Shown here piece after piece: positions 29,077-34,758 of a DNA stretch of 64,000 nucleotides; position 1 is the stretch's first letter, and each line of letters opens with the position of its first letter. Below the pieces are notes generated by a model. It had not been told where the DNA came from. It saw only the letters and a program-made list of their open reading frames with translations, and ran no database searches. The translations under genes and the position numbers were made by a program. Origin of the DNA: Streptomyces sp. Q6 (lineage in GTDB: Bacteria > Actinomycetota > Actinomycetes > Streptomycetales > Streptomycetaceae); the NCBI RefSeq assembly GCF_036967205.1, contig NZ_CP146022.1:6510001-6574000 (forward strand). The letters run 5' to 3'.

Positions 29077-30606
29077 TCAGATGTCGCGGAAGATCTCGAT
29101 CTGGGCGCCCACGGAGTTGAGCCGCTCCGCCAGGTCCTCGTAACCGCGGTTGATGACATACACGTTGCGCAGCACCGACGTGCCCTCGGCCGCCATCATG
29201 GCGAGCAGGACGACGACGGCGGGCCGCAGCGCGGGCGGGCACATCATCTCGGCCGCGCGCCAGCGGGTCGGGCCCTCCACCAGCACCCGGTGCGGGTCGA
29301 GGAGTTGGAGGCGCCCGCCGAGCCGGTTGAGGTCCGTCAGGTAGATGGCGCGGTTGTCGTAGACCCAGTCGTGGATCAGGGTCTTGCCCTGGGCCGCCGC
29401 CGCGATGGCCGCGAAGAACGGGACGTTGTCGATGTTCAGCCCCGGGAACGGCATCGGGTGGATCTTGTCGATCGGCGCCTCCAGCTTGGAGGGCCGGACC
29501 GTGAGGTCGACGAGGCGCGTGCGGCCGTTGTCGGCGACGTACTCGGCCGTGCGGTCGTGGTCGAGCCCCATCTCCTCCAGCACCGCGAGCTCGATCTCCA
29601 GGAACTCGATCGGCACCCGCCTGACGGTGAGTTCGGACTCCGTGACGACGGCGGCGGCCAGCAGGCTCATCGCCTCGACCGGGTCCTCCGACGGGGAGTA
29701 GTCGACGTCGACGTCGATCTGCGGCACCCCGTGCACGGTGAGCGTCGTCGTACCGATGCCGTCGACCCGTACGCCCAGGGCCTCCAGGAAGAAGCACAGG
29801 TCCTGGACCATGTAGTTCGACGAGGCGTTGCGGATGACCGTGGTGCCGTCGTGCCGGGCCGCGGCCAGCAGCGCGTTCTCCGTCACGGTGTCGCCGCGCT
29901 CGGTCAGCACGATCGGGCGGTCGGGCGCCACGTCCGGCACCACCTCGGCGTGGTACAGGCCCTCGGTCGCCGTGATGTCGAGGCCGAACCGGCGCAGCGC
30001 GATCATGTGCGGCTCGATGGTGCGGGTGCCGAGGTCGCAACCGCCCGCGTACGGCAGCTTGAAGCGGTCCATGCGGTGCAGCAGCGGGCCGAGGAACATG
30101 ATGATCGAGCGGGTGCGGCGGGCCGCCTGCGCGTCGATGGCGTCCATGTCGATCTCGGCGGGCGGCACGATCTCCAGGTCCACGCCGTCGTTGATCCAGC
30201 GGGTGCGCACGCCGATGGAGTTGAGGACCTCCAGGAGGCGGTAGACCTCCTCGATGCGGGCGACGCGGCGCAGTACGGTGCGCCCCTTGTTCAGGAGCGA
30301 CGCGCACAGCAGCGCCACACACGCGTTCTTGCTCGTCTTCACGTCGATCGAGCCGGACAGTCGGCGTCCGCCGACCACCCGCAGATGCATCGGGCCCGCG
30401 TAACCGAGGGACACGATCTCGCTGTCCAGGGCTTCACCGATTCGGGCGATCATCTCAAGGCTGATGTTCTGGTTTCCGCGCTCGATCCGGTTCACGGCGC
30501 TCTGGCTGGTGCCGAGCGCCTCGGCAAGCTGCGTCTGTGTCCAGCCCCGGTGCTGACGGGCGTCACGGATGAGCTTGCCGATGCGTACGAGGTAGTCGTC
30601 TGCCAT
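29077..30606 (-). CDS. XRE-type HTH fused to MurA-like enolpyruvyl transferase
   Basis: 509 residues from ATG 30606. Residues ~6-60 are an XRE/Cro helix-turn-helix (LIRDARQHRGWTQTQLAEAL, GTSQSAVNRIERGNQNIS). Residues ~75-509 are a full MurA fold: K93-N94 in TSKNACVALL, Cys190 in PYAGGCDLGTRTIEPH at the PEP-binding Cys position, and VYDNRAIYLTDLNRLGG matching the ENR-F/L-NR-G element. MurA makes UDP-GlcNAc-enolpyruvate for peptidoglycan. The catalytic residues look present, so it could be an enzyme, a UDP-GlcNAc/PEP-sensing regulator, or both. Streptomyces also carry an ordinary MurA elsewhere. A dyad directly upstream of its own ATG recurs before aconitase. Confidence 0.9.
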   Translation of the reverse strand: MADDYLVRIGKLIRDARQHRGWTQTQLAEALGTSQSAVNRIERGNQNISLEMIARIGEALDSEIVSLGYAGPMHLRVVGGRRLSGSIDVKTSKNACVALLCASLLNKGRTVLRRVARIEEVYRLLEVLNSIGVRTRWINDGVDLEIVPPAEIDMDAIDAQAARRTRSIIMFLGPLLHRMDRFKLPYAGGCDLGTRTIEPHMIALRRFGLDITATEGLYHAEVVPDVAPDRPIVLTERGDTVTENALLAAARHDGTTVIRNASSNYMVQDLCFFLEALGVRVDGIGTTTLTVHGVPQIDVDVDYSPSEDPVEAMSLLAAAVVTESELTVRRVPIEFLEIELAVLEEMGLDHDRTAEYVADNGRTRLVDLTVRPSKLEAPIDKIHPMPFPGLNIDNVPFFAAIAAAAQGKTLIHDWVYDNRAIYLTDLNRLGGRLQLLDPHRVLVEGPTRWRAAEMMCPPALRPAVVVLLAMMAAEGTSVLRNVYVINRGYEDLAERLNSVGAQIEIFRDI

Positions 30607-30615
30607 AGGGGCAGG

Positions 30616-30633
30616 TTATCTCAGATATGAGAT
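30616..30633. promoter_or_regulatory. dyad TTATCTC-N6-GAGAT before HTH-MurA gene
   Basis: ATCTCA-GATA-TGAGAT is a perfect 6-bp inverted repeat 11-28 bases upstream of the HTH-MurA start codon. The same 12 bases with the same N6 spacing occur upstream of aconitase (31881-31898). Likely autoregulatory operator. Confidence 0.6.
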
Positions 30634-30690
30634 GACGCATTCTGGGGGGTCCATCGGGGTGACGGACCCCCGACGGACCCTGACGGGACG

Positions 30691-30891
30691 TCAGTGACGC
30701 TTGGCGCTGCGGGTGCGACGCCAGCCGAAGGGACCCGGCAGGTCCATCGACGTCGTCCGACGCCCGGTGCTGCTGTGCGTGTGCCGCGGGCCGTGCCGGC
30801 CGCCGCCGGTCGTGACGGACCACGACTTGCGGTTGATGTTGAGCCGGACGCCGGGCAGGATGCGGAAGCTCTTGCGGAACGTGAGCGGCAT
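30691..30891 (-). CDS. DUF4236-like small protein
   Basis: 66 residues from ATG 30891, with GGAGGGG at good spacing on the minus strand. MPLTFRKSFRILPGVRLNIN followed by RKSWSVTTGGGRHGPRHT is the DUF4236 core (F-R-K-S-x-x-x-x-P-G-V-R-x-N-x-x-x-x-x-S-x-T-x-G) seen as small basic proteins in many bacteria. The C-terminal RRTRSAKRH is strongly basic. Function unknown. Two tandem dyads precede it. Confidence 0.75.
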   Translation of the reverse strand: MPLTFRKSFRILPGVRLNINRKSWSVTTGGGRHGPRHTHSSTGRRTTSMDLPGPFGWRRTRSAKRH

Positions 30892-30914
30892 GACGGATTC
30901 CCCTCCGTGGTCCC

Positions 30915-30966
30915 TCCGTACTTCCCTTCGTACGGATGCGTCGGTCCGTACTTCTCTTCGTACGGA
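30915..30966. promoter_or_regulatory. two tandem 22-bp dyads before DUF4236 gene
   Basis: TCCGTAC-N8-GTACGGA at 30915-30936 and again at 30945-30966, period exactly 30 bp. The N8 spacers differ by one base (TTCCCTTC, TTCTCTTC). Located 24 bp upstream of the DUF4236 start, between it and the MBL gene stop. Most likely a pair of repressor/activator sites; the hairpin potential also allows a terminator for the MBL gene. Confidence 0.65.
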
Positions 30967-30998
30967 TACGAGAAGGCGGGTACCCGGGACCGTGCCGA

Positions 30999-31763
30999 TC
31001 AGTCGGCGGAACCGACCGGGAACACCGCCCCCGGCGCCGCGTAGGCCACCGGCCCCGCGAACCGTGACGCCGCCCGCGTCACGGCGTCCCCGGGAGCGAT
31101 CGCCCGCCCCACGTGCGTCACGATCAGCCGCCCCACGCCGGCCGCCGCGGCCGTCTCCCCGGCTTCCTCCGGCGAGTGGTGCACCCCGCCCCCGTCGTCC
31201 CCGTCCGCCTCGCACAGCAAGGTCCCGCATCCGGCGGCCAGTTCGGTCAGCGTGGTGCAGGGTGCGCTGTCCCCGGAGTAGACGAGCGACTGCCCCCGGT
31301 GCTCGACGCGCAGCGCGAACGCGGGCATCCCGTGCGCCACCTCCCGTGTGGCCAGATCGAGGGAGCCGACCCGCGCGCAGTGCCCGTCCGACAGTTCGCG
31401 TACGTCGAAGGCCCGCTCGACCGGGCTGCGCCGCTCGCCGTTCGTGAGGAAGTCCGCGAGCCGGTCGGCGATCCCCGGCGGCCCGTACAGGGGGAGCGGC
31501 GCCTCGCGCCGGACGTCCGCGTACAGGAGTCCGTACTGGGCGGTGAGCAGATCGGCGCTGTGGTCGGCGTGCAGGTGCGAGATCCAGACGGCGTCGATCT
31601 CGTCGAGCCGCGCGTATCTCTGGAGCGCCCCGAGGGTTCCGCTCCCCGCGTCCACCCACAGGCGTGTGCCGCCCCCGGTGACGAGGTACCCGGAAGACGG
31701 GTTCCCCGCGGCGGGGTAGGGCGTGGCGCTGCCGAGGACGGTGAGACGTAGATCACTGGCCAT
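30999..31763 (-). CDS. MBL-fold metal-dependent hydrolase (RNase Z-like)
   Basis: 254 residues from ATG 31763. LRLTVLGSATPYPAAGNPSS at the N-terminus, zinc motif SHLHADHSADL (HxHxDH), GHCAR, VYSGDSAPC (third ligand Asp), and VTHVGRAIAPGDA near the end. Belongs to the ElaC/RNase Z-like branch of small MBL proteins common in actinobacteria; the long exosite arm of true tRNase Z is absent, so tRNA processing is not assured. Divergent from aconitase with a 280-bp regulatory gap. Confidence 0.85.
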   Translation of the reverse strand: MASDLRLTVLGSATPYPAAGNPSSGYLVTGGGTRLWVDAGSGTLGALQRYARLDEIDAVWISHLHADHSADLLTAQYGLLYADVRREAPLPLYGPPGIADRLADFLTNGERRSPVERAFDVRELSDGHCARVGSLDLATREVAHGMPAFALRVEHRGQSLVYSGDSAPCTTLTELAAGCGTLLCEADGDDGGGVHHSPEEAGETAAAAGVGRLIVTHVGRAIAPGDAVTRAASRFAGPVAYAAPGAVFPVGSAD

Positions 31764-31880
31764 TGCCGGACGCTATCGGACGGGTCGCCGCGTCGCCGTC
31801 CCGGGGTTGCCGTACGACCATGAGGAGAGCGAACGCACGCGAGGAGGGGCTCGACGGCAGCGTCGGGTCATGTACTAGAG

Positions 31881-31898
31881 TTATCTCGACATCGAGAT
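31881..31898. promoter_or_regulatory. dyad TTATCTC-N6-GAGAT upstream of aconitase
   Basis: TATCTCGA-CA-TCGAGATA is a perfect 8-bp inverted repeat (31882-31899), about 145 bases before the aconitase start. Its TTATCTC and GAGAT half-sites and N6 spacer are identical in layout to the dyad in front of the HTH-MurA gene. Confidence 0.6.
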
Positions 31899-31954
31899 AT
31901 CTGCCGAGGCGCACTGCGGCCGCCCGCCGGGCCGAGTCCGACGGTAAGGGTTAC

Positions 31955-31973
31955 CTAACTTAGCCTTACCTTA
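31955..31973 (-). promoter_or_regulatory. iron-box-like sequence upstream of aconitase
   Basis: Read on the minus strand, TAAGGTAAGGCTAAGTTAG matches 15 of 19 positions of the DmdR/IdeR iron box TTAGGTWAGSCTWACCTAA (consensus from memory). It lies 70-90 bases before the aconitase start, suggesting iron-responsive control of this 4Fe-4S enzyme. Confidence 0.45.
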
Positions 31974-31974
31974 G

Positions 31975-34758
<2,784 letters not shown>

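Follow-up and report, generated by a model that had tools for sequence, protein, structure and literature searches.

In the 64,000-nucleotide stretch of Streptomyces sp. Q6 DNA analyzed here (the window), two dyads with identical outer bases stand upstream of two different genes, one encoding an XRE helix-turn-helix domain fused to a MurA-like enolpyruvyl transferase (HTH-MurA) and the other encoding aconitase, which raises the question of whether a single regulator serves both. The original prediction was that HTH-MurA represses its own gene and also controls aconitase, tying PEP/UDP-GlcNAc status to the TCA cycle. Our comparative analysis partly supports this interpretation, with the sequence evidence favoring self-repression by HTH-MurA and not favoring its control of aconitase. 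We consider it highly probable that the dyads belong to two independent repressor-operator pairs, HTH-MurA with dyad 1 and the MarR family protein TamR with dyad 2, and that their outer bases are alike by happenstance.

Both dyads are present as described. A pattern scan of the window located TTATCTC-N6-GAGAT exactly at 30616-30633 and 31881-31898, and at ≤2 mismatches gave four strand-wise matches (each of the two dyads read on both strands) where 0.65 would be expected, with none of 100 shuffles reaching four, in keeping with the claim that chance occurrence is improbable. The distances also hold: dyad 1 had been placed 11-28 bases before the ATG, which is correct to within a base (10 bases separate the 18-mer from the HTH-MurA ATG at 30606), and dyad 2, in the form first given, ends 145 bases ahead of the aconitase GTG at 32044, as estimated. 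Agreement between the dyads is limited to the outer bases, the inner six being AGATAT in dyad 1 vs. GACATC in dyad 2, and it is these inner bases, a point missed originally, that tell the two site families apart. In the genome-wide search that had been proposed as a check, dyad 2 was the single exact match to TATCTCN6GAGATA in the 8.95 Mb genome and dyad 1 one of four sites with one mismatch; the 51 sites at ≤2 mismatches compare with 25 for the reversed pattern, so that the looser matches are mostly background. A dyad-1-like sequence with two mismatches, TATCTCAGGCGTGAGTTG, lies elsewhere in the genome at G000:C1:5344113-5344130. A third candidate site at C1:371977 (TATCTCGACATCGAGGTG) was rejected, as it lies inside a long open reading frame and not at tamR. 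Coordinates of the features are collected in Table 1. Of the two genes between the dyads, the hydrolase scored 154 bits against the NF041851 phosphodiesterase model, under its cut-off of 400; the dyads are just ~350-700 bp apart in a number of relatives, and this intervening gene pair (30694-31763) therefore looks variable.

Table 1. Features of the HTH-MurA and aconitase region, with the distant tamR gene; positions refer to the window unless a contig is given.
Feature	Position	Strand	Description
HTH-MurA gene	29077..30606	-	509 aa, coordinates include stop; from ORF and Pfam
Proposed HTH-MurA -10 element, TAACCT	30613..30618	-	Its TA is also the end of dyad 1; six bases from ATG
Dyad 1	30617..30634	-	TATCTCAGATATGAGATG as 18-mer; CATCTCATATCTGAGATA in gene orientation; proposed HTH-MurA auto-operator
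DUF4236 gene, small	30694..30894	-	PF14020 5.4e-17; between dyads; outside proposed circuits
Metallo-beta-lactamase-fold hydrolase gene	30999..31763	-	PF12706 4.2e-20; between dyads; outside proposed circuits
Proposed aconitase -10 element, TAGAGT	31876..31881	+	Abuts dyad 2; transcription start probably inside dyad
Dyad 2	31882..31899	.	TATCTCGACATCGAGATA; proposed TamR (MarR family) operator of aconitase gene
Iron-box-like (DmdR1) site	31955..31973	.	Between dyad 2 and aconitase gene
Aconitase gene	32044..34758	+	GTG start; Pfam Aconitase 8.3e-168
tamR (MarR) gene	G000:C1:4941762-4942256		Beside, and divergent from, trans-aconitate-methyltransferase-type gene

The predicted fusion was borne out by profile searches, which placed an XRE helix-turn-helix at the N-terminus of HTH-MurA (residues ~9-64; Pfam HTH_3, PF01381, 1.6e-15) ahead of the enolpyruvyl-transferase domain (Pfam EPSP_synthase, 3.3e-42). 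The protein passes the broader NCBIfam model NF006873 (319 bits, cut-off 297) and falls under the cut-off of the murA equivalog TIGR01072 (306 bits vs. 392.7); it carries ALR where two aligned PDB MurAs have DLR. In an alignment of 39 HTH-MurA sequences K93, N94, R166, C190, and R195 are invariant and R419, R461, and R487 at least 90% conserved, residues which we take to correspond to the catalytic positions K22, N23, R91, C115, R120, R331, R371, and R397 of MurA. The recognition helix is intact, with T33, S34, Q35, and A37 at least 90% conserved in the same alignment, and after the designed protein DBP48 the nearest PDB chains to the HTH are C.AhdI, C.BclI, and HipB. A further MurA-like gene, at C1:3349440, encodes a protein with 33% identity to HTH-MurA. 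We regard HTH-MurA as the ortholog of S. coelicolor SCO5998 on account of its place beside aconitase; PMC12161575 names SCO5998 MurA2. Among the titles and abstracts listed from the open-access literature, none concerned an HTH-fused MurA as a regulator.

Orthologs were found in 36/36 sampled congeners (one split across two contigs), in 16 of 396 genomes drawn across the phylum at E ≤ 1e-90, the window's genome included, and in 71 of 248 genomes from a different order at E ≤ 1e-110. The 80 best of at least 556 relatives take in the named carriers Aeromicrobium, Mumia, Brachybacterium, Nocardioides, Kribbella, Actinopolymorpha, Kitasatospora, and Streptomyces. A genome from another family of the same order (G051) has, on a small contig (C743:3165-4691), an HTH-MurA of 85% identity; the other 13 sampled members of that family are without a comparable match, pointing to contamination or transfer.

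Dyad 1 is conserved with the gene. The consensus TATCTCAnnnnTGAGATA was matched at ≤3 mismatches in 178 of 184 distinct orthologous promoters vs. 0 of 184 shuffled promoters (one base shuffle each), where identical upstream regions were counted once, a locus at a contig edge that lacks the start was left out (L042), and one further locus gave no HTH (L195). Best matches had 0-3 mismatches in 178 promoters, 4-5 in four, and 7 in two, compared with 4-8 in the shuffles; the best-site listing settled ties by position and so hid near-start sites of some loci, and 178/184 is the count to use. The conservation spans Streptomyces, Kitasatospora, Nocardioides, Aeromicrobium, Kribbella, Brachybacterium, and further families. 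The conservation in other streptomycetes that had been asked of dyad 1 was likewise found, with exact YATCTCANNNNTGAGATR present in 42 of 61 Streptomyces genomes, of which 41 hold it once and the other (G028) twice. The HTH-MurA position was placed in 26 of the 42, and comparison by eye put a site immediately upstream of the gene in all 26; 19 of the 61 genomes lack the exact sequence, and a variant site was seen in seven of these. Judged by exact sites, of which a genome mostly has one, the apparent regulon is the HTH-MurA gene itself.

The geometry of the site is equally constant. A scan of 152 loci found a dyad within 140 bp in 147; L059, L195, L207, L210, and L211 had none in that range, those of L210 and L211 being located farther upstream. 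In 122 of the 147 loci the first in-frame start codon follows the dyad by 10-11 bp, and in 20 an in-frame codon at +2 had precedence. In 145 of the 147 the last TA of the dyad opens a TAnnnT hexamer, of which the T four bases after the dyad is the independent part, since the TA belongs to the searched pattern. This arrangement is expected of a leaderless actinobacterial promoter, with the operator over the spacer and the -10 element, and the HTH-MurA promoter is probably of this kind.

The operator also changes with the protein. Most loci pair the recognition helix TSQSA with the half-site TATCTCA or CATCTCA, and lambda CI presumably recognizes TATC through a glutamine and a serine at the equivalent positions of its helix. 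The helix is TSQGA in four loci (L199, L201, L202, L205), all with AACTCA...TGAGTTA, that is, AACTC in both halves; in the protein tree L199 falls among TSQSA relatives, away from the other three (support 0.71), and these may therefore be two events. In a fifth locus, L224, the helix is TTQSV and the operator TATCGC...GCGATA; the usual pair is retained in L056 and L227, which are closely related to it. Two loci of one genus, L059 and L207, have a rewritten helix (MTEQD and MTGTD) and no dyad, with a -10-like TACGAT remaining. The dyad thus changes alongside the helix in five loci and is lost where the helix is rewritten, and this covariation, albeit of few events, supports autorepression. The link of serine-to-glycine with TAAC is not exclusive, as L365 and L382 combine a TSQSA helix with TAACTC in one half-site. 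The genomes with rewritten helices and no operator are G196 (L059/L063), where the frame is cut short at ~388 residues, and G534 (L207), and they are perhaps natural losses of autoregulation.

Some loci with an intact helix have poorer sites. Among 182 loci whose helix is not rewritten, four have 4-5 mismatches to TATCTCAnnnnTGAGATA; despite a TSQSA helix, the best-site listing gave weak sites only for L363, L383, and L388, and sites are asymmetric in L362, L378, L380, L385, and L386, these weak or asymmetric cases falling mostly in two families. The dyads of L362, L380, L385, and L386, all from one family, have a GGTATA end, such as TATCTCAGGGAAGGTATA, which suggests a changed second half-site or a looser dimer geometry.

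Taken together, the conserved position, the helix/operator covariation, and the mostly single exact site make HTH-MurA self-repression a well-supported reading, and dyad 1 is most likely the auto-operator of this HTH-enzyme fusion. An HTH_3-type domain with an intact helix, and an operator that lies over the predicted promoter of the same gene and co-varies with the helix, are the features of an XRE autorepressor. An HTH-MurA dimer would bind dyad 1 via the XRE domain, and because the dyad extends across the spacer into the -10 element of the putative leaderless promoter, binding would block RNA polymerase; HTH-MurA would thereby repress its own gene, perhaps that one alone. What the DNA itself displays is the conservation, the geometry, the covariation, and the single exact site in most Streptomyces genomes; that HTH-MurA binds and represses, that its transcript is leaderless, and that enzyme ligands have any influence is inferred.

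The aconitase dyad has a different candidate. According to the review PMC5487221 (which gives Huang and Grove, 2013 and Huang et al., 2015 for TamR and the tam-sacA regulon), the MarR family protein TamR acts in S. coelicolor as a repressor of the aconitase gene, and citrate and trans-aconitate cause its release. In the genome studied here TTTCTTGACATCAAGAGA and TCTCTTGATGTCGAG lie between the tamR gene and the divergent methyltransferase gene, whose product scores 381 bits against NF010703 (cut-off 320), which we take to be the trans-aconitate methyltransferase family. Sites within one mismatch of NNTCTYGANNTCRAGANN occur at 47 of 49 other tamR loci (scanned whole, one best site each), and at the two exceptions, the TamR-positive L189 and L190, the region ahead of tamR is without a TamR-type site. 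In one family four loci, from genomes without HTH-MurA, have TATCTCGAYRTCGAGATA upstream of tamR, and one of the four (L176) has the exact aconitase dyad TATCTCGACATCGAGATA there. That dyad was to be conserved in other streptomycetes as well, and it is exactly TATCTCGACATCGAGATA in 39/39 Streptomyces. The consensus beside it across these 39 is aTGtACTAGaGT (capitals ≥95%, lower case ≥75%), and as the likely -10 element abuts dyad 2, a repressor bound to the dyad would mask the transcription start. Dyad 2 is most likely a TamR box, a known kind of site, to which TamR, encoded elsewhere in the genome, would bind just past the likely aconitase -10 element and block transcription until released by citrate or trans-aconitate.

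In order to separate the two regulators, aconitase upstream regions were compared in 119 genomes (72 in a first set, minus one with no match, G060, and one fragmented, G059; 53 in a second set, four of them without a match at the cut-off), a site being counted at ≤2 mismatches within 260 bp. It was present in 39/39 Streptomyces, and shuffled upstream regions yielded 1/119. Outside Streptomyces the site was present in 67/67 genomes with TamR vs. 1/13 without (Fisher p = 2e-13, phylogeny ignored), where absence of TamR means no match at E ≤ 1e-25 (plus, in Streptomyces, G001) or, in the second set, at E ≤ 1e-40, the second-set TamR-negative genomes G476, G482, and G695 hold relatives of 44-47% identity, and some of the proteins scored as TamR at 51-55% identity, among them those of G050, G493, and G515, may be paralogs. 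The TamR-positive genomes had the site in 35/35 cases with HTH-MurA (possibly contaminated G051 counted as a carrier) and in 32/32 without, and the TamR-negative genomes in 0/2 and 1/11, respectively; HTH-MurA alone showed a weak association with the site (p = 0.03, Fisher, phylogeny ignored). The exception, G476, has the site with a TamR-like protein of only 47% identity, and G482 has a 45% relative and no site; in Streptomyces, G001 (79% complete) has the site and a best TamR match of 45% identity. The site thus tracks TamR and not HTH-MurA.

Cross-scoring with two matrices gave the same separation. The HTH-MurA matrix was built from 36 distinct non-Streptomyces sites, and the TamR matrix drew likewise on 36 distinct sites, found at 47 of the 49 tamR loci. 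Dyad 1 scored 31.6 bits with the former and -7.6 with the latter, and dyad 2 15.4 and 32.5 bits, respectively, the median of tamR-locus sites being 30.6. The half-sites are TATCTCA(T/C)A for HTH-MurA and TATCT(T/C)GA(C/T) for TamR; with TATCT common to both and C allowed at base 6 of TamR sites (0.33), the twelve shared bases are unsurprising once both operators exist.

These data bear directly on the reading that HTH-MurA binds both dyads and links PEP/UDP-GlcNAc status to aconitase, which we regard as improbable. Besides the twelve identical outer bases, the identical spacer, and the invariance of the aconitase dyad in Streptomyces, it could appeal to dyad 2 being the second-best HTH-MurA-matrix site in the window (the next scores 4.2 bits), so that weak cross-binding is possible. 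Against this, the aconitase site is retained by every TamR-positive genome that lacks HTH-MurA and is missing from both HTH-MurA carriers that lack TamR, and HTH-MurA's own non-Streptomyces sites score at least 26.2 bits (in-sample) vs. at most 15.7 for 107 aconitase sites. Furthermore, in the 35 non-Streptomyces carriers with the site, the aconitase dyad has the T6/A13 form in 25 and the C6/G13 form in 4. A tie between the C6/G13 form and HTH-MurA carriage was considered and found unconvincing (4/35 carriers vs. 1/33 non-carriers, with a single family supplying three of the four). On the sequence evidence, dyad 2 appears to be bound by a different, unlinked regulator, and the predicted control of aconitase by HTH-MurA is not supported.

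The converse, that TamR or another MarR protein binds both dyads while the HTH of HTH-MurA is idle, is hardly credible: the common outer TATCT is offset by the negative TamR-matrix score of dyad 1, which is missing the GAYRTC core, by the covariation of dyad 1 with the HTH-MurA helix, and by dyad-1-like sites kept at L058 and L382, in the genomes G053 and G495, which are without a TamR match at E ≤ 1e-12. A single regulator for both dyads was accordingly rejected on the inner bases, the cross-scoring, and the co-occurrence. Dyad 1 could instead be bound by an unrelated, unlinked regulator and merely be located before the HTH-MurA gene, a reading to which a few intact-helix loci without a clear dyad lend something, given that HTH-MurA binding is deduced from sequence; the helix/operator covariation, the loss of the dyad in both rewritten-helix loci, and the fact that most Streptomyces genomes with an exact site have just one, at this very gene, make it improbable too. 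The pairing of HTH-MurA with dyad 1 and of TamR with dyad 2 is thus the reading that we prefer.

A further element lies between dyad 2 and aconitase. The iron-box-like sequence has 4-6 mismatches to the iron-box consensus TTAGGTTAGGCTAACCTAA in 39/39 Streptomyces, compared with 7-11 in shuffled upstream regions, and a match with 5-6 mismatches occurs in 5 of 80 other genomes. It is at the place corresponding to a predicted DmdR1 site between SCO5998 and SCO5999, reported in PMC12161575; it is separate from both dyads and part of neither. SCO5998 is listed as a putative DmdR1 target in that paper, and HTH-MurA may therefore also answer to iron.

The proposal gives a role to the HTH half of Streptomyces' second MurA-like protein, namely that of an autorepressor with a defined operator in many actinobacterial families. 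The aconitase half is a known circuit, now followed beyond Streptomyces. It also carries a warning that identical half-site bases within 1.3 kb can serve unrelated regulators, which inner bases and phylogeny separate. More speculatively, and with rather less than an even chance in our estimation, HTH-MurA may be a widespread actinobacterial trigger enzyme, one that senses UDP-GlcNAc and/or PEP with its MurA-like domain and controls its own leaderless promoter via the XRE domain, and which in Streptomyces may weakly touch the aconitase TamR box in its TATCTC...GAGATA form.

Both pairs resemble known systems. The aconitase circuit shares with TamR/tam-sacA of S. coelicolor its target, a MarR gene divergent from a methyltransferase-type gene, and a TCTTGAYRTCAAGA-like motif between the two that matches the aconitase dyad; there is no difference in principle, the Streptomyces aconitase site being C6/G13 and most sites upstream of tamR T6/A13. 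For HTH-MurA, the XRE repressors lambda CI and HipB have TATC...GATA operators, and HipB, one of the nearest PDB chains to the HTH, is also alike in the 18-bp dyad with TATC ends; HipB works with a toxin kinase, whereas the partner domain of HTH-MurA is a covalently joined MurA-like enzyme. BirA, PutA, and NadR are enzyme-fused autorepressors, and HTH-MurA would resemble them in carrying a DNA-binding domain on a metabolic enzyme and acting on its own gene, while differing from them in its enolpyruvyl transferase fold, its XRE domain, its putative leaderless promoter, and its apparent one-gene regulon.
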